From the NCBI RefSeq assembly GCF_025699125.1, contig NZ_JAILWC010000001.1, positions 228,884 to 292,883 of the forward strand: 64,000 bases of DNA, in the 5' to 3' direction. Within the stretch, counting starts at the first letter, position 1; each line of letters starts with the position of its first letter. A model generated the notes under the pieces. That model had not been told where the DNA came from, searched no databases, and worked only from the letters and a program-made list of their open reading frames with translations. Both the position numbers and the translations under genes were made by a program. This document shows positions 19,267 through 52,053 of this stretch, piece after piece. The DNA comes from Nitrosopumilus sp. (GTDB lineage Archaea > Thermoproteota > Nitrososphaeria > Nitrososphaerales > Nitrosopumilaceae).

Positions 19267-20088
19267 ATGACTGCTACAATTTTAGAATGTCAAATAATTG
19301 ATATTAAAAAAATAGTAAGGAAAAAAATAGATGTAAACATAGATCACTATGCCTCTAGTTTTTTAGAACGTAGGGTTCAAAATAGAATGAACCTCATAGG
19401 AATAAAATCCTGTGCAGAATACATCTCATTCCTAGATGAAGATTTTCTTGAATCTTTTGAACTTAATTCTACTTTGTCAATTAATGTGACGCAGTTTTTT
19501 AGGAATCAAACTGTGTGGGATGTGTTCAAACAGAAAATTATCCCTGAAATTATTTCATTGTCTCCTTCTGATCAACCAATTTCAATATGGAGTGCTGGAT
19601 GTGCAATCGGAAATGAACCCTATAGCTTGGCAATGATGTTTTCTGATATGCTTCAAAAAAATGAAAAAAAATTCAAGATTGTTGCAAATGACATAAATCC
19701 AACATCTATAGGTATTGCAAAAACAGGCCAATATGAATTTGAAAAATTAAAGAATATCCCAAATTCATTTTTGTCTAAATTTTTAGAAAAAATTGATGAT
19801 GATTTATACAAATTTAGTGATGATTTAAAAAAAACTATTAATTTTCAAGTAGGCGATGTTGCATCATTTCACATTAATCATGTTGATGTAATTCTATGTA
19901 GAAATATGCTAATTTATTACGCTGACGACGCTAAAGAACTTCTTTTTAAAAAATTTCACAAGACACTAAATGACGGTGGATTTCTTGTATTGGGCATGGC
20001 TGAAGATGTGCCTATTTCAATGAAGAAATTTTTTAAAACTGTTGATTTGGGTATGAAAATCTATCAAAAAGTTTCACCTGATCCCTAA
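19267..20088 (+). CDS. cheR: Chemotaxis protein methyltransferase CheR (stand-alone copy)
   Basis: CheR methylates receptor glutamates with S-adenosylmethionine. Visible parts are the N-terminal helical domain (FLERRVQNRMNLIGI), LSINVTQFFRN, and the SAM site WSAGCAIGNEPYSLAMMF with VANDINPTSI, then CRNMLIYY and GGFLVLGMAE. At 273 residues it has full length. It is one of two CheR copies; the other is at 34073 in the main cluster. Its distance from the cluster suggests service to the soluble receptor at 23185 or to another pathway. Confidence 0.92.
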   Translation: MTATILECQIIDIKKIVRKKIDVNIDHYASSFLERRVQNRMNLIGIKSCAEYISFLDEDFLESFELNSTLSINVTQFFRNQTVWDVFKQKIIPEIISLSPSDQPISIWSAGCAIGNEPYSLAMMFSDMLQKNEKKFKIVANDINPTSIGIAKTGQYEFEKLKNIPNSFLSKFLEKIDDDLYKFSDDLKKTINFQVGDVASFHINHVDVILCRNMLIYYADDAKELLFKKFHKTLNDGGFLVLGMAEDVPISMKKFFKTVDLGMKIYQKVSPDP

Positions 20089-23146: not shown

Positions 23147-23184
23147 ACCAGTAAATTATGTTGATCTATGCATTTCTTTCCATA

Positions 23185-25323
23185 ATGAGTGATTCTCAAC
23201 AAGTTATAGAATTGCATGAAAATAAAAAAGATTTTTTCCAGCAGGTAGTTGAACAAACTTCTGAAATTGGTCATGAAATCAACAGAGCGTTAAAATCTAC
23301 CAAAGAAATCAACGGTAGGGCACATATGCTTTCCACAACTGCAAAAATTGAAGCAAATCGTACTGGTGATATTGGAAGAAATTTTTTGGTCGTATCGAAC
23401 TCAATTGATGAATTAAGTACAAAAACAGATGAAGTTCTAGATAAAATGAAAAAAGAAACTATACGAGAGATTGAAAATTTATCTAAATCAATTGAAAGTA
23501 AATCTGTCAGCATTCGTGGAAGCAGATTGGCAACTCTTGCTTTGACAAATATTCGACTAATTGACAGAAATCTTTTTGAAAGGGCTGCCGATGTTCGCTG
23601 GTGGGCAACAGACGATATCTTGGTCAAATCTCTTGTAGAGAATAATATTGATGCGTATCAAGAAGCAGAAAATCGCCTTAGAGTGATTTTACAATCGTAT
23701 ACTGTTTACTATGATCTTATTTTATGTGATGTGGAAGGCAACTGTAAAGCTTCTGGAGAAAGCAAATTTGGTTTTACTGGAAGAAATTTTTCTGATAAAC
23801 CTTGGTTTAAAGGAGCCATGAATACCAACAGTGGTAAAGAACATGCATTTGAAACTGTACATCACTCCCCATCTGTAAATGATGATTATACAGTAACTTA
23901 TTCCTGCAAGATACATGAGGGGGGAAATCCTGATAACAAAGTTATTGGTGTTCTGGGTGCTGTTTTCAAATGGACTGAATTTGCACAAAGAATAGTAAAT
24001 GAAACTTCTTTATCTTCTGAGGAAAAATCAAAAACACGTGTGCTACTTTGTGATGATGCGGGAAATGTTCTTGCTGATACAAAAGAAAGAATCCTAAAAC
24101 AGACGATTAATTTTAAAGGTAAAAATGATTTGTTCCTAAAAGAAAAAGGATTCAGCGTCGTTGAAAAAGATGGAATTAAAAAAATTGTCTGCCATGCGTT
24201 GTCTCCTGGGTTTGAAGGGTATAGATCAAAAGAATGGCATTCATTAATAATTCAAGATATTGATGCGTCTTGTCAGGATCTGGATTTGACCGACAATAAT
24301 GATGAATCTCTTGATTCAATACTTGATTTAATATCAAATTTGTCTGAAGAAACACAACAGGCAATTAAAGAAATTAACAATGTCAATGATGAAACTCATG
24401 TGTTGTCTCTAAACGCTGCAATTGAAGCTGCCCGTGTGGGTGATGCCGGGCGTGGATTTGGGGTTATAGCCGGATTTATGGGTGACCTTTCACGAACCAC
24501 TGCTGAAATAACATCAAAAATGGATTCGAACACCCAAAAAAAACTCGTAGATCTTAATTCATTGATATCTATCAATTCTAGAGAAATTAAAGGTGACAGA
24601 CTTGTGAACCTGTCTTTTACAAACATTGATTTGATAGACAGGGCATTGTATGAACGAACAGCAGATGTTCGCTGGTGGGCTACTGAAGGGAGTGTAATTC
24701 AAGCATTAACTCAAAAAACAATTGAAAATAAAGATTTTCTAACAACTCGTCTTCAAACAATTCTCAAGTATTATACAGTATATTCAGATTTGATCGTATG
24801 TGACACAAACGGTGTTGTCATTGCAAATGGCTCTTCAAATAATGTGGAGAACACCAACATGAATGATGCTTCGTGGTTTCAAACTGCATTAAAGACTAAA
24901 AATGGTAGCGAATATGGATTTGACATAATTAAAACAGAAAAAGGGAATGACACATCAACTGGTCTTGTATTTTCATGTAAAATACACAAAGATGGAAATA
25001 TTTCTGATGATGTTATAGGAATTCTTGGAGTTGTATTTAATTGGAACCAATTCATTGATGTGATATTCAAAGAAACACCACTTAATGGAAACGAAGTCGA
25101 TTCTACTAGTTTAGTCATATTGGATTCTGATGGAAACAAACTATCTGAGAACATCAAACACAAAAATATGATTTCAGACCATGATTTACTGCTATTACTT
25201 AATGAAACCAAGAATTTTCAAACTATTACTTTAGATAATTCGAAATTATTGGCAGGTCATGCAAAATCAAGCGGATATGAAGGATTTTCTACCGGTTGGC
25301 ATTCAATAATAATTCAGTCATGA
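23185..25323 (+). CDS. Soluble chemoreceptor with a duplicated [MCP signalling tip + Cache-like sensor] unit
   Basis: About 712 residues with no membrane segment. The protein is two repeats of about 350 residues. Each starts with a short methyl-accepting signalling hairpin and ends with a Cache-like sensor. The first hairpin tip is degenerate (LSTTAKIEANRTGDIGRNF). The second is canonical ([19 protein letters not shown]). Both sensors share ER.ADVRWWAT, YTVY.DLI.CD, a conserved SCKIH, VIG.LG.VF.W, and a closing WHS.IIQ. Sensor and signal order is reversed from typical receptors, and a normally extracellular sensor fold seems to be cytoplasmic. The start at 23185 fits the operator spacing. It may signal through CheA/CheW or serve the nearby CheR. 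Confidence 0.78.
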   Translation: MSDSQQVIELHENKKDFFQQVVEQTSEIGHEINRALKSTKEINGRAHMLSTTAKIEANRTGDIGRNFLVVSNSIDELSTKTDEVLDKMKKETIREIENLSKSIESKSVSIRGSRLATLALTNIRLIDRNLFERAADVRWWATDDILVKSLVENNIDAYQEAENRLRVILQSYTVYYDLILCDVEGNCKASGESKFGFTGRNFSDKPWFKGAMNTNSGKEHAFETVHHSPSVNDDYTVTYSCKIHEGGNPDNKVIGVLGAVFKWTEFAQRIVNETSLSSEEKSKTRVLLCDDAGNVLADTKERILKQTINFKGKNDLFLKEKGFSVVEKDGIKKIVCHALSPGFEGYRSKEWHSLIIQDIDASCQDLDLTDNNDESLDSILDLISNLSEETQQAIKEINNVNDETHVLSLNAAIEAARVGDAGRGFGVIAGFMGDLSRTTAEITSKMDSNTQKKLVDLNSLISINSREIKGDRLVNLSFTNIDLIDRALYERTADVRWWATEGSVIQALTQKTIENKDFLTTRLQTILKYYTVYSDLIVCDTNGVVIANGSSNNVENTNMNDASWFQTALKTKNGSEYGFDIIKTEKGNDTSTGLVFSCKIHKDGNISDDVIGILGVVFNWNQFIDVIFKETPLNGNEVDSTSLVILDSDGNKLSENIKHKNMISDHDLLLLLNETKNFQTITLDNSKLLAGHAKSSGYEGFSTGWHSIIIQS

Positions 25324-34072: not shown

Positions 34073-34888
34073 TTAATATTCTATTTTTTGATAAATTCTT
34101 TCTTTTGGGTACAGAGTTAAAAATAACTTATTTCCAATCGTACCAAACATAGATTCATTTTGTCCAAGAATTAGTATTCCGTTTTCCGTTAATGAATCTG
34201 CAAATTTTTCAAAAATTGCCTTATACCTCTGTTTATCATAATAGATCAACACATTTCTGCAAAAAATCATATGGAATTTCTTTTCTGTAATTTTCATCAT
34301 GTCTATATTTTCATATTTTATTTGATTACTTATGTTGGATTTGATTTGATATTGATCGTATTCTAATTTTTCAAAATACTTTATTCTCCTTTTTGTGTTG
34401 ATATTTACTAAATTTGCATCTCTGTAAATTCCTTTTTTTGCACGACTAATTGCATCTAAATTAATATCATTTGCAAAAATTTCATATTTAATATCTCTTG
34501 ACTTTAATACTTCGTTTAGTGTTATTGAAACACTGTGTGGTTCCTCACCTGTTGCACACCCACAACTCCATACATACGCAGTATGAACTTTTGATTTATT
34601 TATTAAATTTGGAATTATCTCCTTCTCCAGTTTCTCCCAAACATGTGGATCTCTAAAAAATTGTGTTACATTAATTGAGAATGCTAAATAAAGATTATTT
34701 GCCTCCTCCAAATTTGTTGATAGCAGTTTTAAATATTCATCAAAATTCACAATTCCATTAATTTCCATTCTGTGACGAATTCTTCTTTCTAAAAAAGCAG
34801 GTTTGAAACCATCTATGTTTTTTCCAGTTTTTATCTTTACCTCCGTTCTTATTTTATCTAAAATTGCGTTAATTTCTGATTCCATCAA
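34073..34888 (-). CDS. cheR: Chemotaxis protein methyltransferase CheR (cluster copy)
   Basis: A 271-residue full-length CheR. The N-terminal FLERRIRHRMEINGI, LAFSINVTQFFRD, the SAM motif WSCGCATGEEPHSVSI, FANDINLDAI and CRNVLIYYD are clear. It methylates receptor glutamates and is placed after cheC in the cheB-cheA-cheC-cheR order. The first CheR at 19267 is a paralogue of similar length. Confidence 0.93.
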   Translation of the reverse strand: MMESEINAILDKIRTEVKIKTGKNIDGFKPAFLERRIRHRMEINGIVNFDEYLKLLSTNLEEANNLYLAFSINVTQFFRDPHVWEKLEKEIIPNLINKSKVHTAYVWSCGCATGEEPHSVSITLNEVLKSRDIKYEIFANDINLDAISRAKKGIYRDANLVNINTKRRIKYFEKLEYDQYQIKSNISNQIKYENIDMMKITEKKFHMIFCRNVLIYYDKQRYKAIFEKFADSLTENGILILGQNESMFGTIGNKLFLTLYPKERIYQKIEY

Positions 34889-35641: not shown

Positions 35642-37192
35642 CTATTGAATTATTGTTGATGGATCAATTACTAGGGCGACTTTTCCATCTGGCAGTATGG
35701 TAGCATTTGAAAATAAATCTGTTGATTCATTTCTGTCTAATTTTTTAATTACAATTTCTTGATTTCTTTCAAATTTATCCACTACTAACCCATAATTTTT
35801 TCCATCATTTTCAATTATTACTACTGTTAGTGGTTTTGATTTATCTGATTCGTTTTTCATTTCAAATAATTCATTTAGTTTTATCAAAGGAATTATTCTA
35901 TCTCGAAGTTTAATTACTTCAGTTCCATGCAATGAAGTTATTTCATTCTGTTTTATTTGGAGTGTAGTTGTAATACTTGAAAGTGGAATTGCAAATTTTT
36001 CCCCTGATATCACTACTAACAGTCCTCTGATTATTGAAAGACTCAAAGGTAAAGATAATTCAATAGTGGTGCCATTACCTCTCTCACTGTTGATTTTGAC
36101 TGTTCCTCCAACTGACTCAATTTGTGAAATTACTACGTCCATTCCTACCCCTCTTCCTGAAATATCTGTTACTTCTTTTGCGGTGGATAAACCTGGGGCT
36201 CCAATTAATTGAACTGCTTCTTGATGTGAGATTTTCTCTGCTTCTTCTTGAGTAATAATTCCGCTTTCTATAGCTTTTTCTTTTACTCTGTCTACATCAA
36301 TTCCTCTTCCATCATCATTGATTATGATGAGTACATTTTCTCCTTTTCTTGAAACTGTGAGTGTGATATTGCCTGTTTCTGGTTTTCCGCAGATTGTTCG
36401 TTCATCAGGTGATTCAATGCCATGATCTGCACAATTTCTTAGAATGTGTAATAGAGGATCTGTGATAGAATCTAAAACACTTCTATCCAATTCAATTCCA
36501 GAACCATCCATGCTCAAATTAATTTTCTTTGATAATTTTTGAGATGTGTCTCTTACTGTTCTGTTGAATCTACCAAAAATCTGATCTATTGGGACAAGTC
36601 GAATTTGCATCGACTGATATTGTAAATCTGTGATTAATCTATCAATTTCTGTTACTATTTGCTTTAAATTTTCATATTTTTCATTTTCAATTGTTTGCTG
36701 TAGTTGCATTTTTGATGTCAATAACTCCCCCACTAAATTTACAACAGAGTCCAAATCCGACATTTTTACTCTTATTGTGGGTAATGTTGTTGTCTTGACG
36801 GATTCTTGCATGGGGATATTTTGAATTTCTTGTTCTGGTGATTCTAGTTTTTTTAAATAAGGTGCTAAATCCACTTTTAATTTATCATCTGATATCATTT
36901 GTTGTAAAAGATCAATGCATACAAAAAGCGCACTGGTAAGATCATGTGTTAATTTTTCTGTTCCTTTTCTAATATTGTCAAATATGTTTTCAATATTTTT
37001 ACACAGTTCTCTTGTATCGTCATAATTCATTGTAGATGCCATACCTTTGATAGTATGAGCTGACCTAAAGATTTGATCTAAATATGATCTATTTTCTGGT
37101 TGTTCTTCTAATTGTAATAATGTCTTGTTCATTATTTCTATATGTTCTAATGCCTCGGAGACATACATCTCACGATAATTATTATCAGACAA
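35642..37192 (-). CDS. cheA: Chemotaxis histidine kinase CheA lacking the P2 domain
   Basis: A 516-residue CheA. The P1 HPt domain carries His46 in IFRSAHTIKGMAST. A short linker (EQEIQNIPMQESVKTT) goes directly to P3 (KMSDLDSVVNLVGELLTSKMQL), P4 with HILRNCADHGIESP, DDGRGID and GRGVGMDVV, and the CheW-like P5 with the end NATILPDGKVALVID. The usual P2 docking domain for CheY/CheB is absent, so receivers would dock elsewhere. It overlaps cheB by 8 bp. Confidence 0.94.
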   Translation of the reverse strand: MSDNNYREMYVSEALEHIEIMNKTLLQLEEQPENRSYLDQIFRSAHTIKGMASTMNYDDTRELCKNIENIFDNIRKGTEKLTHDLTSALFVCIDLLQQMISDDKLKVDLAPYLKKLESPEQEIQNIPMQESVKTTTLPTIRVKMSDLDSVVNLVGELLTSKMQLQQTIENEKYENLKQIVTEIDRLITDLQYQSMQIRLVPIDQIFGRFNRTVRDTSQKLSKKINLSMDGSGIELDRSVLDSITDPLLHILRNCADHGIESPDERTICGKPETGNITLTVSRKGENVLIIINDDGRGIDVDRVKEKAIESGIITQEEAEKISHQEAVQLIGAPGLSTAKEVTDISGRGVGMDVVISQIESVGGTVKINSERGNGTTIELSLPLSLSIIRGLLVVISGEKFAIPLSSITTTLQIKQNEITSLHGTEVIKLRDRIIPLIKLNELFEMKNESDKSKPLTVVIIENDGKNYGLVVDKFERNQEIVIKKLDRNESTDLFSNATILPDGKVALVIDPSTIIQ

Positions 37193-38701: not shown

Positions 38702-39289
38702 TTATGCTTCTTGATTAATTATAGCTTCTATTTCTGGAATAATTTCATCATTACTATTTTCTACATTATTTTCTGATTCTATTTCAACAGATTTTGAATT
38801 TATGGGTGTGTCGTTTTTATTATGTTCATCAGTTTCGCTCAGGAACTTGGCCACATCCACTAAAATAATTAATTTTTCATTCATTTTAGCTATTCCTTTG
38901 ATGTAATTCTCTTCAAATGCACCTTGTGGGGATTCCTCTACATCTTTTGTTGATATTCTTAATACTTCGTTTACCTCATCAACTAGGAGCCCTGTGAGAG
39001 TATCGTTTACATCTGCGACTAGTATTCTTTGTTTTTCAATTTCAGTTGTACTTGAATTTGATAATCCTATTTTTTTGTTCACATCAATAATCGGGATGAT
39101 TTTTCCTCTTAAATTCATCACTCCTCTAACATATGGTTTTGATTTAGGTATTTTTGTAATTGCTTCAACGATTTTAATTTCTTTAACTTGATCAATTGGT
39201 ACTGCATAATTACCTTTTTTTGAAGATTTTTCTGAAATGGTAAACGTGACAACTTGTATTGTATCATTTAATACTGTTTGTGTTGACAT
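38702..39289 (-). CDS. cheW: Chemotaxis coupling protein CheW
   Basis: CheW couples receptors to CheA. The CheW fold is seen in TFTISEKSSKKGNYAVPIDQVKEI, PKSKPYVRGVMNLRGKIIPIIDVNKKIG, and VDEVNEVLRI. About 50 extra acidic residues form a C-terminal tail (ENNVENSNDEIIPEIEAIINQEA), an unusual addition. The operator lies 34 bp before its ATG. Confidence 0.9.
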   Translation of the reverse strand: MSTQTVLNDTIQVVTFTISEKSSKKGNYAVPIDQVKEIKIVEAITKIPKSKPYVRGVMNLRGKIIPIIDVNKKIGLSNSSTTEIEKQRILVADVNDTLTGLLVDEVNEVLRISTKDVEESPQGAFEENYIKGIAKMNEKLIILVDVAKFLSETDEHNKNDTPINSKSVEIESENNVENSNDEIIPEIEAIINQEA

Positions 39290-39506: not shown

Positions 39507-40880
39507 TTATTTGATGTTTCCTTTTTTTAGTTTTTCAACAATTTCTTTGATCTGTGGTTTGACTATTTTCCCTGCATCGATATCTTTACATGCTTCTTCC
39601 ATGCCTGTAATTTCCATTATTTCTGTAATTGGTGTTCCAATTATCACATATCCTTTGACGTTGTTATTTTCATCAAATGTTGGACTGATTACTGTTTTTG
39701 TCCAGAATCTTTTGCCATCTTTTGTTTTATTTCTAAGATATGTCTGAAATATTTTTCCACTTGAAATTGTTTTCCATAATAAATCGAATAATTTCTCATC
39801 ATGCCAATCCGATTTAAAAATTCTATGCATTTCGCCTTTTAATTCTTCTTCAGGGAATTTTGAAATATCTAAGAAAAAGTGATTTACATAATCACTGATC
39901 CCATCAACATCTGTAGTTGATATGATTGTTGATGAATCTAAAACATTTGTGATTTCTGATAACGTTCTTGCGTCTTTATATGCATCTTTTAGAGTCTTTG
40001 TTTCTTTGTCTTTTGCTTTAACAATATCTTCAAAACTCTCTAGATTTGTTTGTGCTACAGATAACACTTCTTCGCTTGCAGCAGTAGCCTCTTCTGTTCC
40101 ACTTGAAACTTCTTCTGTTGCTACTGAAATTTCTTGCATTTGTGAAACGACTTCTGAAATTGATACTGAAATATTTTTAATCGATGTAAGTATATTTGTA
40201 ATTACTTCATGAGCATCTTGAACAATGCTATTTCCTTTCTCAATACTGCCAGTTGTTTTATCTGATGAATTTTTTAATGAACTTACAAGTTCTGAAATAT
40301 CTTCTGCTCCTTTTTTGGAATTTTCTGCAAGTCTTCTTACCTCGTCAGCTACTACTGCAAATCCTCTTCCCACATCTCCTGCTCTTGCAGCTTCAATTGC
40401 TGCATTAAGCGCCAAAAGATTTGTTTGCTCTGCAATTTGAGTAATAAATCCTGTCATGTTATCCACTTTTGATAATTCTACTGCTAATTTCTTTACATCA
40501 TTGGATGATTCTGATACAATTGATTTCATACTGTCCATCTTGTTCATTCCTTTCTCAGCATCAGCACTGATGGTTTTGCTGATTTCCTCTGATTGTCGCA
40601 TCATCTCCATGGCTTTTGTTGCATTTTTAGCTACTCCTTGAATTGCCGATGCAATTGATTGTAAGGATTGTGATACTTCTTCAACTCCGCTTGTCTGACT
40701 TCTTGAAGCCGATTCTAACTGTGTCACTGTTTCGCTTAATTCTTCAGATGATGCTACTGCTTGATCAAATGATTTGAGAACCTTTGTTCCCATGCTATTG
40801 CTATTTGTATTAATATTATCTGTTGATTCTGATTTTAAGATTGCGTTTTCATCGATGATTTTGGTTTTTTGTGTTGACAT
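39507..40880 (-). CDS. Soluble methyl-accepting chemotaxis protein with C-terminal PAS sensor
   Basis: A 457-residue receptor with no membrane segment. Residues about 30-300 are a methyl-accepting signalling domain with tip [37 protein letters not shown], canonical for CheA/CheW binding. A PAS domain follows in the C-terminal 150 residues ([36 protein letters not shown]). The order is reversed from typical receptors, as in the protein at 23185. The PAS suggests sensing of redox or a small ligand in the cytoplasm. Confidence 0.88.
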
Positions 40881-45443: not shown

Positions 45444-45920
45444 TCAAGGTACCGAGAAAATATAATCATCTGATTCACCATTCGATATAGTTAATTGAAC
45501 AAGATATGATGTACTGCTTTGTAATGACGAGTCGTCCTGTATTGTGATTTGGATTGTATCGCCTTGAGACCATACAGAATCCACGCTGGTTCCATTGAAA
45601 ATCCATTGTGGTGTGGTGCCTGTTGAGTATCCCACAAAATCAACTGAAGTAATAGGTCCAAAATATAGGTCAGATGAACCCAATCCCTTAATTGGTGTCA
45701 AACCTGTATTTTTTACCCACGCATTCACTGACGTGCTGTTTAACTGGCTAACATGAATTATCTCAAACTTACTTAGCATTTTGTCTTTTTGAGCTTCTGT
45801 TGTTGCAGTATAGTATCCTTCAAATGTTCCAACCTTGCTCACAACAATGCCTGTAATTAATCCTGCAACTATGATTGATGCAATAATTAAAATCCCTTCA
45901 CTGATCATTCCAGATGCCAT
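45444..45920 (-). CDS. arlG: Archaellum stator protein ArlG (FlaG)
   Basis: A 158-residue protein with an N-terminal membrane helix (ISEGILIIASIIVAGLITGIVV, the archaellin-like start) and a beta-rich domain with VSQLNSTSVNAWVKNTGLTPI. ArlG is a filament-like stator component paired with ArlF. Its start overlaps the end of the arlX-like gene by 1 bp. Confidence 0.85.
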   Translation of the reverse strand: MASGMISEGILIIASIIVAGLITGIVVSKVGTFEGYYTATTEAQKDKMLSKFEIIHVSQLNSTSVNAWVKNTGLTPIKGLGSSDLYFGPITSVDFVGYSTGTTPQWIFNGTSVDSVWSQGDTIQITIQDDSSLQSSTSYLVQLTISNGESDDYIFSVP

Positions 45921-47167
45921 TATTTCACCTCATTTGCAACTGTTTTTTCCAGAAAATCTTCCATCTCTGAATTCTCATCTTCGATTTTCGTTATTCCATT
46001 AGAATTATTTTTTTTATCAATAAATTTTTTTAATTGTTTTTCATCCACTGTAATATTCAAAGTCTTACAATGAACTTTAGCTAGTTCAAATACTTCTTCT
46101 GAAACAAAATCTCTTGATAATTCATCAATCAGAGAAATAACATCTTCTGGCAATTTGGAATTTTCTTCCTCTATAGGTTCTTGTACCACAGGTTCTTGTA
46201 CCACAGGTTCTTGTACCACAGGTTCTTGTACCACAGGTTCTTGTACCACAGGTTCTTGTACCACAGGTTCTTGTACCACAGGTTCTTTTGGTTTAGAATT
46301 TGATTTTGAAATTTCTGGAGGATTGGTTGGTTTTTGAATTAATTCGTCTACATTAATTGTTTGAATGTTATCTTTGAATGGAGCATCTTCTTTCATGAAA
46401 TTTAATGGATTGTTCATATCTGTTGTGAGTAATTTAATGTCAGTTAGAGTGGTTTCAAAAGAATTTGAAAGAATTTCCACTTCTTCTTTTACTGTAGTCA
46501 GATCCATCTTGAATTGATCAAAATCTGTTTTAAGTGTCTGAATATCGTTTTCTATTGGTTCTAGTTTCTCCATGATGATTAATTCTGTGTCTGAATTATC
46601 TAGTGATGTATCTGAATAATTTCCATCGCCCTCAGTTTCCACTCCTGCTAGTAAAGCTTCTATTTCTGAATTGCCCCCTATGCTGTCTTCTGAATTATCC
46701 TCAGCATTTGCTCTGGATAACATGGCCTCTATCTCTGGATTTCTATTTTCTTCTCCCTCAGCATTTGTTTTTGTCAAAAGTGTTTCCATTTCTGACATTC
46801 CTGAACCGTTTTCAGAATCTGTCCCTGCTAACAAAGCATCAATCTCCGAATTTTCACTACTTGAAGTTTCTGTGATTGATGATTTTTTTGGTGTTTGTAT
46901 TTTGGCGTTGTTTGATTTTCCTTTCCCTTTTACTGATATGTTTTTTAATGATAAATTTTTTAAATTAATTTTTTTAAAATTAAGACCAACTACTATTACA
47001 ACAAGTGGAACCAACAATGTAAACAAAACATACTGTTCATCAAAAAGATATTGAGGAAATATTTCATAAAGAACAAGAAAATACATTGCAAATCCTGAAA
47101 ATATGATTAATTTTAAATTGCTTTCACTGATTTTTAGTTTAGAAAAAATAGTTGATGGGGGGAGCAT
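45920..47167 (-). CDS. ArlX-position membrane protein with repeated LL-type peptide motifs and a PVVQE repeat
   Basis: A 415-residue protein at the arlX position of crenarchaeal-type archaellum clusters. Two membrane helices (IIFSGFAMYFLVLYEIF, VLFTLLVPLVVIVVGL) are followed by a cytoplasmic region. Five short motifs of the form S-E-I/M-D/E-x-L/M-L recur (NSEIDALLAG, MSEMETLLTK, NPEIEAMLSR, NSEIEALLAG and NSEMEDFLEK near the C-terminus). A coiled coil near 205-245 and seven PVVQE repeats follow, then a C-terminal helical domain. In crenarchaea ArlX forms a ring around the motor. Here the repeated motifs could be docking sites for partners. Confidence 0.72.
   Translation of the reverse strand: MLPPSTIFSKLKISESNLKLIIFSGFAMYFLVLYEIFPQYLFDEQYVLFTLLVPLVVIVVGLNFKKINLKNLSLKNISVKGKGKSNNAKIQTPKKSSITETSSSENSEIDALLAGTDSENGSGMSEMETLLTKTNAEGEENRNPEIEAMLSRANAEDNSEDSIGGNSEIEALLAGVETEGDGNYSDTSLDNSDTELIIMEKLEPIENDIQTLKTDFDQFKMDLTTVKEEVEILSNSFETTLTDIKLLTTDMNNPLNFMKEDAPFKDNIQTINVDELIQKPTNPPEISKSNSKPKEPVVQEPVVQEPVVQEPVVQEPVVQEPVVQEPVVQEPIEEENSKLPEDVISLIDELSRDFVSEEVFELAKVHCKTLNITVDEKQLKKFIDKKNNSNGITKIEDENSEMEDFLEKTVANEVK
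46176..46280. repeat. Seven perfect 15-bp tandem repeats
   Basis: The unit GGTTCTTGTACCACA occurs seven times without change, coding on the minus strand for the PVVQE series. A partial copy follows at 46281. Change in copy number would keep the reading frame, since 15 is a multiple of three. Confidence 0.95.
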
Positions 47168-47177
47168 AAAAAACCTC

Positions 47178-47891
47178 CTAGCCCAAATCTACTATGGTGT
47201 TTGTGATTGTTGGAACTTGTCTTTCTACCGTCAAGGCTGCACCAGTTGGTGTAATGATTTCCACTTTGACCTTGTCTAATGATGCAGGTCTATCAGCTGC
47301 ACTGTAAAGAATTGCCAAAACTGCTGTTTCACCTTGTGAAAGAATGTCATTTGGTGGTGATTCATTTGCTTGTGTAAAGTAAACGAATGCACGTGTATCT
47401 GTTGGAATTTCATTACTGAATGGATCGCCAACTATGTCGGCAAATGCTTCACCTGTTCCACTAGATTCTGTATTATCTGCTTGTATGGATGCTGCTGATA
47501 GTTGTTTCCATTCTTGAGTAGATAATGTACCTACGTAGATGTTGTCGTAATTTTCGCCATTACTGACATATTTTACGGCCATAGTCTCTGCATCAAGATT
47601 TACATCTGATCCACCAGATGAGACCTTAAATGGAAATGCTGTAGCATTAAGTGATCCGTCATTTACGTATCCTTGACCAATAACTTTGCCTGCAACCTGC
47701 ATGCTGCTACTGGATTCACCCAAACTAGAGATGATCGAAGTCTTTGCTTTCTGTGAGGTAGTAAATCCCATGTTAAGTACAACAAATGCTAAGGCTGCTG
47801 CTACGATTACAAATGCAATCATGACTATTGCAGACTCTACACCGATGACTCCACGATGAGAATGTCGCGTTCCCTTTCGTTGTAATTTCAT
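47178..47891 (-). CDS. arlB1: Archaellin ArlB, copy 1
   Basis: A 237-residue archaellin with the class III signal MKLQRKGTRHSHRG cut before VIGVESAIV, a hydrophobic filament helix, and a beta-rich surface domain ending VERQVPTITNTIVDLG. It lies 10 bp before the arlX-like gene, so it probably opens the arlB1-X-G-F-H-I-J transcript. Its promoter holds a perfect 19-bp operator and a TATA box 27 bp before the ATG. Confidence 0.95.
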   Translation of the reverse strand: MKLQRKGTRHSHRGVIGVESAIVMIAFVIVAAALAFVVLNMGFTTSQKAKTSIISSLGESSSSMQVAGKVIGQGYVNDGSLNATAFPFKVSSGGSDVNLDAETMAVKYVSNGENYDNIYVGTLSTQEWKQLSAASIQADNTESSGTGEAFADIVGDPFSNEIPTDTRAFVYFTQANESPPNDILSQGETAVLAILYSAADRPASLDKVKVEIITPTGAALTVERQVPTITNTIVDLG

Positions 47892-47929
47892 TGATAGAAT
47901 TTAGTGGGATGGGAGTATATCATCGCGTG

Positions 47930-47948
47930 TGTTTGCTGTGATCAAACA
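47930..47948 (-). promoter_or_regulatory. 19-bp operator and TATA box of archaellin copy 1
   Basis: TGTTTG-N7-CAAACA is a perfect 6-7-6 palindrome 39 bp before the ATG. The TATA box GATATAC at 47915-47921 is 27 bp before the ATG, so the transcript is leaderless. Confidence 0.8.
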
Positions 47949-47980
47949 AGACTAATTTCAAATTATTCAAAAAACAGTAT

Positions 47981-48700
47981 TTATCCTAAATCTAGAACTT
48001 CGTGGGTAATACTTGGTATGTCTCTGCTTATTGTCATGGTTGCGCCACTTGAAATCATTATTTCTAAATTAATCCTGTCTTGTGATTGAGGTCTGTCATT
48101 TTCAGCAAATGCCACTGCCAATACTGCGTGCTCTCCCATATCTAAAACTTGGTTTGCATTTAATCTCTTTGCCCAATATACGAATGCACTTGTTTCATTG
48201 GGAGTGGTCCCATTAACCGGATTTGCCTCATTAAAAGCATCAAATGAAGAATCTGTTTCAAGGTCTGCCTGTCTAAATGCAAGAACAGATTGTCTAAAAA
48301 TTTCAGATGTTATAGCTCCTGCATAGATGTTATTGTACTGAATAGATTTAGTGATATAACTAATTGAGACAACATCTGATGCAAAATTTACAGAATTTCC
48401 CGACTCTGAAATTTTTAATGGTATTGTAGTAGCATTAATTTTTTGAACAACTCCGCATCCTGAATTCACATTAATACAACCTACTGCAGTAATTGATCCT
48501 GCTATCTTCATGGCACTTGTAGCTTCTTCAAGACCTGCCAGAGTTACAGTCTTTGCTTTCTGTGAGGTAGTAAATCCCATGTTAAGTACAACAAATGCTA
48601 AGGCTGCTGCTACGATTACAAATGCAATCATGACTATTGCAGACTCTACACCGATGACTCCACGATGAGAATGTCGCGTTCCCTTTCGTTGTAATTTCAT
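47981..48700 (-). CDS. arlB2: Archaellin ArlB, copy 2
   Basis: A 239-residue archaellin with the same leader and first helix as copy 1. The variable outer region differs: an added CINVNSGCGVV segment with two Cys, and AFRQADLETDSSFDAFNEANPVNGT. It ends ITHEVLDLG. The first 150 bp and about 60 bp of promoter are the same as in copies 1 and 3. Confidence 0.95.
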   Translation of the reverse strand: MKLQRKGTRHSHRGVIGVESAIVMIAFVIVAAALAFVVLNMGFTTSQKAKTVTLAGLEEATSAMKIAGSITAVGCINVNSGCGVVQKINATTIPLKISESGNSVNFASDVVSISYITKSIQYNNIYAGAITSEIFRQSVLAFRQADLETDSSFDAFNEANPVNGTTPNETSAFVYWAKRLNANQVLDMGEHAVLAVAFAENDRPQSQDRINLEIMISSGATMTISRDIPSITHEVLDLG

Positions 48701-48738
48701 TGATAGAATTTAGTGGGATGGGAGTATATCATCGCGTG

Positions 48739-48757
48739 TGTTTGCTGTGATCAAACA
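48739..48757 (-). promoter_or_regulatory. 19-bp operator and TATA box of archaellin copy 2
   Basis: A perfect TGTTTG-N7-CAAACA palindrome 39 bp before the ATG at 48700, with GATATAC at 48724-48730, identical to copy 1. Confidence 0.8.
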
Positions 48758-48807
48758 GAAAACTCGAAATATCAAAAATAAGAAAAAGGAAAACCAGTGT
48801 TATTGGT

Positions 48808-49521
48808 TTAACCTAGGTCTACTACGGATGTAGTGATTGTTGGAACTTGACGTTCTACTGACAATGAGGCTCCAGTTGCTGGAATTATCTCCACTCTAAC
48901 TGTATCAAGTGAAGTTGGTCTCTCTCCATCTTCAAATGCCACTGCCAATATTGCATGTTCACCATCATCTAAGATTGAATTGATGGTTGATCCACTAACT
49001 GACCAGTAGATGAATGCTGCAGTATTGGTTACTACGGTTTGATTTACAGGATTCATAACTCCTGAGAAGTTTGTCAAACTATTATCCACTGCTCCTCTAA
49101 ATGCATCAGCTAATGATCTGTATTCTGCATCAGTAACTGTACCAGAGTAAATATCATCATATTCGATACTATTGCTGACATATTTCACTGCAGTTGTTGC
49201 TGCTGACAAGTCTACTGCATCTCCACCAGAAGTAATCTTGATTGGGTATGCAGTTGCATTAAGATATGGTGTACTACATCCATTACTAGATGATGTACAA
49301 CCTACGCCGATAACTTTACCGGCAACCTGCATGCTGCTACTAGACTCTCCTAATCCAGAGATGATTGTGGTTTTTGCTTTCTGTGAGGTAGTAAATCCCA
49401 TGTTAAGTACAACAAATGCTAAGGCTGCTGCTACGATTACAAATGCAATCATGACTATTGCAGACTCTACACCGATGACTCCACGATGAGAATGTCGCGT
49501 TCCCTTTCGTTGTAATTTCAT
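48808..49521 (-). CDS. arlB3: Archaellin ArlB, copy 3
   Basis: A 237-residue archaellin. The start is as in copy 1. The variable part has CTSSSNGCSTPYLNATA and DAFRGAVDNSLTNFSG. The C-terminus VERQVPTITTSVVDLG is identical to copy 4. The two Cys of the variable region are also present in copies 2 and 4 and may form a disulfide. Confidence 0.95.
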   Translation of the reverse strand: MKLQRKGTRHSHRGVIGVESAIVMIAFVIVAAALAFVVLNMGFTTSQKAKTTIISGLGESSSSMQVAGKVIGVGCTSSSNGCSTPYLNATAYPIKITSGGDAVDLSAATTAVKYVSNSIEYDDIYSGTVTDAEYRSLADAFRGAVDNSLTNFSGVMNPVNQTVVTNTAAFIYWSVSGSTINSILDDGEHAILAVAFEDGERPTSLDTVRVEIIPATGASLSVERQVPTITTSVVDLG

Positions 49522-49559
49522 TGATAGAATTTAGTGGGATGGGAGTATATCATCGCGTG

Positions 49560-49578
49560 TGTTTGCTGTGATCAAACA
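49560..49578 (-). promoter_or_regulatory. 19-bp operator and TATA box of archaellin copy 3
   Basis: A perfect TGTTTG-N7-CAAACA palindrome 39 bp before the ATG at 49521, with GATATAC at 49545-49551. Confidence 0.8.
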
Positions 49579-49628
49579 GAAAACTCGAAATATCAAAAAT
49601 AAGAAAAAGGAAAACCAGTGTTATTGGT

Positions 49629-50348
49629 TTAACCTAGGTCTACTACGGATGTAGTGATTGTTGGAACTTGACGTTCTACTGACAATGAGGCTCCAGTTGC
49701 TGGAATTATCTCCACTCTAACTGTATCAAGTGAAGTTGGTCTCTCTCCATCTTCAAATGCTACTACCAATACTGCATGCTCGCCTTGATCTAATACTGCA
49801 TTAGCAGTTGTTTGGACTGACCAATAGATGAATGCTGCTGTGTTAGCTACAACAGATCCTGTCATTGGCTGTGCATTGTTAAAATCATCAAAATCACTAC
49901 TACTTTCAGCATCTGCTTGATCTAATGCGGATGTTAAAGATCTGTATTCTGTTGCCGTGATTGGACCTGCGTAAACATCATCATACTCAATTGCATTACT
50001 AAGGTATCTTACAGCTGTTGTTGCTGCTGACAAGTCTACTGCATCTCCACCAGAAGTAATCTTGATTGGGTATGCAGTTGCATTAAGATATGGAGTTGAT
50101 GAACAACCTCCTGCCGATGTTGTGCAACCTACGCCGATAACTTTACCGGCAACCTGCATGCTGCTACTAGACTCTCCTAATCCAGCGATGATTGTGGTTT
50201 TTGCTTTCTGTGATGTAGTAAATCCCATGTTAAGTACAACAAATGCCAAGGCTGCTGCTACGATTACAAATGCAATCATGACTATTGCAGACTCTACACC
50301 GATGACTCCACGATGAGCATGTCGCGTTCCCTTTCGCTGTAATTTCAT
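49629..50348 (-). CDS. arlB4: Archaellin ArlB, copy 4
   Basis: A 239-residue archaellin with leader MKLQRKGTRHAHRG (one Ser to Ala change). The variable part has CTTSAGGCSSTPYLNATA and LDQADAESSSDFDDFNNAQPMTGS. The C-terminus is the same as in copy 3. It differs from copies 1-3 in the promoter spacer sequence but keeps the same spacing. Confidence 0.95.
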   Translation of the reverse strand: MKLQRKGTRHAHRGVIGVESAIVMIAFVIVAAALAFVVLNMGFTTSQKAKTTIIAGLGESSSSMQVAGKVIGVGCTTSAGGCSSTPYLNATAYPIKITSGGDAVDLSAATTAVRYLSNAIEYDDVYAGPITATEYRSLTSALDQADAESSSDFDDFNNAQPMTGSVVANTAAFIYWSVQTTANAVLDQGEHAVLVVAFEDGERPTSLDTVRVEIIPATGASLSVERQVPTITTSVVDLG

Positions 50349-50386
50349 TGATTAGAAAATGAATGATGTAGGTATATCATGGCGTG

Positions 50387-50405
50387 TGTTTGCTGTGATC
50401 ATACA
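50387..50405 (-). promoter_or_regulatory. 19-bp operator and TATA box of archaellin copy 4
   Basis: In gene orientation TGTATG-N7-CAAACA, 39 bp before the ATG at 50348, with GATATAC at 50372-50378. The spacer to the start codon differs from that of copies 1-3 while the spacing is kept. Confidence 0.75.
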
Positions 50406-50422
50406 TGTTTAAAATAATGACT

Positions 50423-51283
50423 TTAAAGAGAATTTTTGAAGAAATTTAATGAATTGACGAATTCTTTTTCTGTCATTAAATCATTTCCGTACCAGCATAA
50501 TGTTTTTTTGAACCAATTTGGAAGAAGTACTTCTTCAAAAATAAAATTATCTTCTAATTTAAAATCTTGACAAAATTCCAGATATTTTGATTTCTCATAT
50601 GCTATATTTTTTGAAATTTTTATCTGCATGCTGGTAGATTCACTTGGAATGCCATAAACTAACTTGAGTACATAATTTTCATCTTTGTCCCATAAAGAAT
50701 CTGAAATATCTATAACTTCGTTAAAAGATGAATCTGATTCAAATGATTTGATTTTTTGATAGACGAGATTGTTTTTACTGTCATAAATTAACATCTCATA
50801 TTCTGTATTTCCTAAATCTGATTCCACTAATCCTCCAATTGATAAAATATTTTGATTTAGAATTTCATATGATATGTCTAATGTGGAAAAAAGTATGTTT
50901 GGTCTATCTTCAAAAAATATTTTACCTGTATACCATGGATGTATTTCACAAAAATAATAGTATCCTGCATAATCCGTAAAATCTAATGAAATCGAATTGC
51001 TATTTTCTCCTCCTGAAATAATATCTGTGGAAAAGAATGTTCCAGAATAATCTGGATGTTGAGGTACTCCGCTAACAATTCTATGGCTAATTGAATCATT
51101 GTTTTGCCATGTTACTCTATCTCCTGAAAATATTGGGAGTTCTTTGGGCTTGAACAATTCTTGTCCTCCATGGCTATCGTAAGGATTTATGGATACGATC
51201 CAAGAATTTTCTGCATATGCTGACAATACGATATATGGTAAAACCATGAATAATCCTAAAATTATCATTATTTTCATCGTCAT
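50423..51283 (-). CDS. Secreted cupredoxin-like protein inside the archaellin group
   Basis: About 287 residues with a signal peptide (MIILGLFMVLPYIVLSAYA). A cupredoxin domain follows with His in SISHRIVSG and Cys/His in YYFCEIHPWYTG, but no Met three residues after the His as in the paralogue at 17291, where the motif is CMVHPWM; here it is Tyr. A second beta-rich domain and a C-terminal part with two Cys (LEFCQDF, TLCWYGN) follow. It sits between archaellin copies 4 and 5 on the same strand. It might be a copper or electron-transfer protein linked to the archaellum, or just an inserted gene. I chose the ATG at 51283. Confidence 0.7.
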   Translation of the reverse strand: MTMKIMIILGLFMVLPYIVLSAYAENSWIVSINPYDSHGGQELFKPKELPIFSGDRVTWQNNDSISHRIVSGVPQHPDYSGTFFSTDIISGGENSNSISLDFTDYAGYYYFCEIHPWYTGKIFFEDRPNILFSTLDISYEILNQNILSIGGLVESDLGNTEYEMLIYDSKNNLVYQKIKSFESDSSFNEVIDISDSLWDKDENYVLKLVYGIPSESTSMQIKISKNIAYEKSKYLEFCQDFKLEDNFIFEEVLLPNWFKKTLCWYGNDLMTEKEFVNSLNFFKNSL

Positions 51284-51372
51284 CACATAATCATAAAAAA
51301 TTTGTAATTTGTAGTGTTGTTTGATCAAAATAAACAAAATAAAAAAGTAAAAAACCTGGCTAACTCACAAGA

Positions 51373-52053
51373 TTAACCAAGATCTACTATTCTCGATGAT
51401 ATGTTTGGAACAGTACGCTCTACTGACAATGGTGCTCCAGTTGGAAGAATTACTTCTGCTCTAATCACATCAAGTGACTGTGGTCTTTCAGATTCTGAAA
51501 ATGCTATTGCTAACATTCCGTGTTCTCCTTGGTCCAAGATAAAGTTGTCATTTCTATTTACGTTGAAATAAAAAATTGCTTTTGTATCCGTTGGACTAGA
51601 AGCATTTACCGGATTTGATGAAATATATCCTGCTGTAACTGATGCTTCCATGGCATCTGCCAGTGTATCATAAGTTCCTGTAGCTATAGCTCCTGCATAG
51701 ATGTTTCCATGCTCAACATTGTTACTAAGATAACGAATGGCAGCATTTGAAGGATTAAGATTAATAGATGATCCTCCAGAGACAATCTTTAGTGGAACAG
51801 CTGTTGCATTAAGTTTTCCTGCAGTGATGTGGCCTGAACCTACAATTTTCCCTGCAATCTCTAATGCACTACTTGCTTCATCTGCACTTGAGACTATGGC
51901 ATTTTTTGTTTTTTGCGTAGTTGAGAATCCCATGTTAAGTACAACAAATGCTAAGGCTGCTGCTACGATTACAAATGCAATCATGACTATTGCAGACTCT
52001 ACACCGATGACTCCACGATGAGAATGTCGCGTTCCCTTTCGTTGTAATTTCAT
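51373..52053 (-). CDS. arlB5: Archaellin ArlB, copy 5
   Basis: A 226-residue archaellin, the most divergent of the five. The leader and helix match the others until MGFSTTQKTKNA. It lacks the paired Cys of copies 2-4 and ends VERTVPNISSRIVDLG. It is the first archaellin in transcript direction and is separated from the others by the cupredoxin gene. Confidence 0.95.
   Translation of the reverse strand: MKLQRKGTRHSHRGVIGVESAIVMIAFVIVAAALAFVVLNMGFSTTQKTKNAIVSSADEASSALEIAGKIVGSGHITAGKLNATAVPLKIVSGGSSINLNPSNAAIRYLSNNVEHGNIYAGAIATGTYDTLADAMEASVTAGYISSNPVNASSPTDTKAIFYFNVNRNDNFILDQGEHGMLAIAFSESERPQSLDVIRAEVILPTGAPLSVERTVPNISSRIVDLG

Follow-up and report, generated by a model that had tools for sequence, protein, structure and literature searches.

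Why should a single soluble chemoreceptor carry two signaling tips, each followed by a sensor of its own, and how could it signal from the cytoplasm? This question is raised by one gene in the 64,000-nucleotide stretch of a Nitrosopumilus sp. genome analyzed here (the window). The gene lies on the forward strand in an open reading frame of 721 amino acids (positions 23158-25323). Because its homologues start near Met10 (MSQ.., MSTSQ..), that methionine is the likelier start, giving a protein of 712 amino acids (Table 1).

Table 1. Positions in the window of the two-unit receptor gene, its parts and the associated chemotaxis genes.
Feature	Positions	Strand	Basis
Complete receptor gene, likelier start	23185..25323	+	ORF opens 23158; Pfam, homologue starts
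Unit 1 hairpin, residues 26-112, apex near Asp71, variant tip HMLSTTAKIEANRTGDIGRNFLVVSNSIDELS	23233..23493	+	Second MCPsignal stretch; AF2 helix 26-149; variant kept in 10/10 fusions
Unit 1 dCache_1 sensor, residues 113-370	23494..24267	+	Pfam; VIA-align Z about 21 to DctB
Unit 1 SCKIH motif, not conserved family-wide	23902..23916	+	Alignments
Inter-unit linker, residues 371-385	24268..24312	+	AF2, dN/dS
Unit 2 hairpin, residues 386-470, apex near Asp429, canonical tip	24313..24567	+	Best MCPsignal stretch 390-459
Unit 2 dCache_1 sensor, residues 471-721, the faster-evolving of the two sensors	24568..25320	+	Best Pfam stretch 516-692; dN/dS
Unit 2 SCKIH motif	24973..24987	+	Translation, alignment
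CheA, presumed signaling partner	35642..37192	-	
CheW, presumed signaling partner	38702..39289	-	
MCP-PAS, sole further MCP detected in the genome, with full-length MCPsignal, then C-terminal PAS; methylation-site match	39507..40880	-	

The initial annotation, made from the sequence alone, had described a soluble receptor in which a tip and a Cache-like sensor are duplicated in this reversed order, and both Pfam and AF2 analyses agreed with it, the predicted chain consisting of two copies of a helical hairpin with a mixed alpha/beta sensor behind it. Two stretches of the protein matched dCache_1 (PF02743, 4.9e-26) and passed the cut-off, and two matched MCPsignal (PF00015, 1.2e-21 in total), that of unit 2 exceeding the cut-off and that of unit 1 alone scoring 31.1 bits, below the required 34.6. 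Aligned over 338 residues, the halves share 39% identity, with an alignment score of 607 compared with a maximum of 43 among 200 shuffles, and the ADVRWWAT and SCKIH motifs pointed out earlier occur in both.

A transmembrane form of the receptor was rejected, as no hydrophobic stretch of the kind was present: the highest 19-residue Kyte-Doolittle mean was 1.65, within a predicted Cache strand, against 2.4 in a neighboring membrane protein, so that no membrane helix is seen. No match to the methylation-site consensus was found in the receptor, and one was found in the MCP-PAS protein of the same genome; the CZB zinc domain had no Pfam match in the receptor at E up to 1. The hairpin arms are predicted to be about 45 residues long (helix from residue 26, apex residue 71), or about 6.5 heptads each. 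The signaling domain of Tsr has 36 heptads and the shortest heptad class named in the literature read is 24H, so that the receptor arms, judged on predicted length, would fall below every named class.

AF2 modeling of the entire chain gave a mean pLDDT of 83.7 and a pTM of 0.75, and modeling of one unit alone (35 sequences) gave 87.5 and 0.76. The modeled sensor, as compared by VIA-align, has the two PAS-like lobes and the long N-terminal helix of a dCache_1 domain, and the comparison grouped it with the dCache domains of DctB, Pct and Tlp receptors, its best crystal match being 3by9 (Z 21.4, rmsd 2.4 Å, 225 residues); no relatives of the sensor alone were detected among PDB sequences by phmmer at E up to 10. 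In an alignment of 35 sequences from across the phyla, the motif DR.LYER..D..WWA and residues Tyr181, Tyr184, Asp186 and Trp216 were invariant. The amino-acid binding motif of dCache_1AA domains, around WY, has an Arg two positions before W; the receptor has W216-F217, and the residue two positions before W is Lys in unit 1 or Ala in unit 2.

The Cys-x3-His of the SCKIH motif had been suggested to bind metal or heme. This proposal was rejected for failing conservation across the family: most single-unit relatives have SCTVRE or SAAVRE in its place, and the second units of some other fusions have SSKIH or YCNVY, a variation that speaks against a metal or heme site common to these proteins.

The receptor had also been considered unusual for its cytoplasmic Cache-like sensor and its tandem structure, and this view holds only for the latter. 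Soluble single units, tip then sensor, were found in Proteobacteria, Planctomycetes, Verrucomicrobia, Actinobacteria and Spirochaetes and in most archaeal relatives. A genome scan with the single-unit alignment confirmed at least 562 stretches, some perhaps matching by the tip alone; at the best 80 of these, which came from archaea and several bacterial phyla, nearly all family open reading frames encoded 340-400 amino acids with a tip, then dCache, and no membrane helix. The single-unit family was present in 28 of 289 genomes searched from the class containing an Azospirillum genome and in 11 of 246 from the phylum containing a Schlesneria genome, and none of these positive genomes had a two-unit frame. 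The reversed soluble receptor is thus widespread in bacteria and archaea, and only the fusion is unusual. NCBIfam contains no model for the single-unit family, giving just weak matches to other MCPs, and no description of the soluble tip-dCache family or of the two-unit fusion was found in the literature searched. An 807-amino acid open reading frame of Cellulomonas hominis (L143:1270-3690) has about 470 residues without Pfam matches ahead of its tip-dCache unit.

When the two-unit architecture was sought in other genomes, it was found, among the matches listed, only in the genus of the window and in a second genus from the same family; nine genomes together encode ten distinct proteins of this kind, two of them in a single genome, and fusions beyond these two genera may exist. 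Genome G203 encodes two different two-unit receptors (L034, L037), 62% and 57% identical to that of the window. The receptor is a conserved, unusual fusion built from a common, apparently undescribed receptor type.

The origin of the fusion was indicated by a genome of a sister genus (G022), in which each unit has a gene of its own, the two genes lying next to each other on one strand within an archaellum-chemotaxis gene cluster, with a T2SSE-type ATPase gene (archaellum ArlI-like) upstream and genes for MCP-HAMP, cheW, cheB, cheA, cheC and cheR downstream. In the phylogenetic tree, this pair's first gene clustered with every first unit of the fusions (support 100/99) and its second gene with every second unit (97/93), showing that duplication preceded fusion and that the order was kept. 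Fusion of neighboring genes is often taken to mean that their products interact, and the same-order fusion of adjacent genes suggests that both single units already paired before they were fused. Adjacent duplicated single-unit tip-dCache genes were also observed in Thalassospira, Asticcacaulis and Pararhodospirillum (L105, L108, L120, L131); tandem pairing thus arose more than once.

The two tips differ consistently. In Tsr numbering, the first units have Thr381, Lys383, Asn387 and Ser402 in all ten fusions, in place of the Asn, Ala, Ala and Glu of Tsr; every one of the 115 other units with a comparable tip carries Asn381. Glu385, Arg388 and Phe396, which have been assigned to trimer contacts on the basis of homology with NpHtrII (PMC8144572), are kept in every first unit. 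The dN/dS of tip 1 was 0-0.12 in six pairs, with similar values for tip 2. Decay of tip 1 was therefore rejected on its invariance and its low dN/dS, and it is a fixed, conserved and specialized variant under purifying selection; the earlier distinction between an off-consensus first tip and a canonical second one stands, but the word "degenerate" that had been applied to the first is misleading.

Across the six reported trimer-contact positions, unit 1 showed higher conservation than unit 2 (p 0.011), in a post hoc permutation test on few related sequences that takes its contacts from another receptor, NpHtrII, and ignores kinship. In the split pair of G022, Arg388 is replaced by Ser in the second gene and kept in the first. 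The residue patterns of the fused and split forms both fit an orientation of unit 1 toward the trimer axis and of unit 2 outward. As for the sensors, each of the six pairwise dN/dS comparisons placed sensor 1 under tighter constraint than sensor 2.

The link of the receptor to chemotaxis genes was examined in the window and across the genus. In the window, some 8-10 kb separate the fused gene from the che cluster, and most other fusions do not share the surroundings of this gene. Both receptor and CheW were found in nine genomes of the genus, receptor only in one, CheW only in two and neither in 83 (Fisher p 4.6e-10, kinship ignored). The one receptor-only genome (G129) holds a broken relic, a fragment (L036) with a 189-amino acid open frame and an internal stop in the match, which together with the absence of CheW suggests that the receptor was lost jointly with the chemotaxis system. 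MCP-PAS, which is encoded in the che cluster, has no membrane helix either: like the fused receptor it is a soluble protein that carries its sensor C-terminal to the MCP domain, so that the search turned up no membrane-bound receptor in this archaeon.

Taken with moderate confidence, the reading that we favor is that the protein is a cytoplasmic chemoreceptor, a covalent pseudo-heterodimer with a specialized first hairpin, that signals to CheA/CheW. It would have arisen from a widespread soluble single-unit receptor by tandem duplication followed by fusion, and the two hairpins of one chain would most likely pack side by side to form one four-helix MCP tip. Two units of undefined mutual placement are expected to give a clearly lower pTM, and the near-equal values of the double and single proteins, as an indirect measure, favor a fixed in-chain arrangement, most simply hairpin on hairpin, although this geometry is to be read as a predicted one. 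Within it, the specialized tip of unit 1 would keep the residues used between dimers in the trimer, and the canonical tip of unit 2 would provide the contact to CheA/CheW. A small molecule of the cytoplasm may bind one or both dCache domains, and the N-terminal helix of the sensor, continuous with the hairpin in the model, would carry the signal out. The sensor C-terminus leads to no membrane helix, which points to exit by the N-terminal helix, and the free C-terminus of sensor 2 would make this route obligatory at least in unit 2. The putative binding of CheW and control of CheA, suggested by the genomic association, would alter CheA activity and archaellum switching. Since no methylation sites were found in the receptor, adaptation, if any, would act through shared arrays, where it could be supplied by the methylatable MCP-PAS. 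More tentatively, and with rather less assurance than we attach to the pseudo-heterodimer as such, the receptor could be a single-chain dimer whose hairpins have for good taken over one role each, inner (trimer-axis) or outer (kinase-facing), where a homodimer has to share both, with cytoplasmic dCache domains that signal backwards via the N-terminal helix.

The pairing could instead be homotypic, two chains forming a homodimer in which unit 1 contacts unit 1' and unit 2 contacts unit 2', so that a two-tip receptor bridges neighboring array positions. MCPs form homodimers, the single-unit relatives can pair only with a copy of themselves or with another receptor, every hairpin is complete, and such a form would be invisible to single-chain AF2 modeling; however, the one-chain pTM of 0.75 suggests a firm in-chain arrangement, and the invariant asymmetry of the tips and the order-preserving fusion fit heterotypic pairing better, which leads us to regard the homotypic form as rather unlikely.

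It is less likely still that tip 1 is a non-signaling spacer, or has lost its role, and that unit 2 alone signals. The departures of tip 1 from the MCP consensus at Asn381, Ala383, Ala387 and Glu402 and the sub-threshold Pfam score of unit 1 would agree with such a spacer, but these same positions are invariant among the fusions, tip 1 is under purifying selection like tip 2, and it retains Glu385, Arg388 and Phe396. An output other than chemotaxis, for example as a scaffold, or metal or heme sensing through the Cys and His that each half of the receptor in the window has kept, is very improbable, given that the tip is kept, that the receptor co-occurs with CheW, that the split form lies among che genes, and that the Cys and His vary both in single-unit relatives and among fusions. 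The pseudo-heterodimer model is moderately supported, and it is testable.

Among known proteins, the nearest to the fusion are the soluble single-unit receptors of Nitrosotalea, Pseudomonas, Caulobacter, Azospirillum and Bradyrhizobium, annotated merely as methyl-accepting chemotaxis proteins, which share its domain order, its LYERxxDVRWWATD signature and its lack of a membrane helix (identity per unit about 40% to archaeal and nearest bacterial forms) but have one unit per protein and keep Asn381. The adjacent gene pairs of G022 and G039 encode orthologous halves in the same order as the fusion, although as two proteins and among archaellum and che genes. PctA, Tlp3 and Mlp24, which are transmembrane dCache_1 receptors, and DctB-type kinases have the same dCache fold (VIA-align Z 18-21, rmsd 2.4-3.3 Å), but their sensor is extracellular, precedes the signaling domain and signals by a C-terminal membrane helix. 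TlpD-type proteins have a full-length MCP coiled coil. The TlpD/CZB type and the archaeal class V receptors (PMC9680633) are likewise cytoplasmic, with the sensor behind the MCP domain, but that sensor differs from dCache_1.

A chemoreceptor homodimer is asymmetric in the array while its subunits have the same sequence, which makes a one-sided change hard to introduce. In a natural fusion with two specialized tips, each side could be altered alone, which would test which subunit sets kinase activity, and the fused receptor could show how work is divided between two receptor subunits. The analysis also indicates a large group of soluble dCache receptors, apparently not described before, whose cytoplasmic sensor would have to signal via its N-terminal helix, in contrast to the outside sensors behind the Cache signaling model, in which the N-terminal helix extends the first membrane helix and the signal exits by the C-terminal membrane helix (PMC4822843).

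Other genes of motility and chemotaxis were also observed in the window. Two CheR genes are present, one in the che cluster (34073-34888) and one 3 kb from the receptor (19267-20088), the nearer of which is not beside the receptor in most other fusions. On the reverse strand, positions 45444-52053 hold tandem archaellin-family genes, with Arch_flagellin matches at 45444-45920, 47178-47891, 47981-48700 and 51373-52053, and a cupredoxin-domain protein (50423-51337) is encoded among them.
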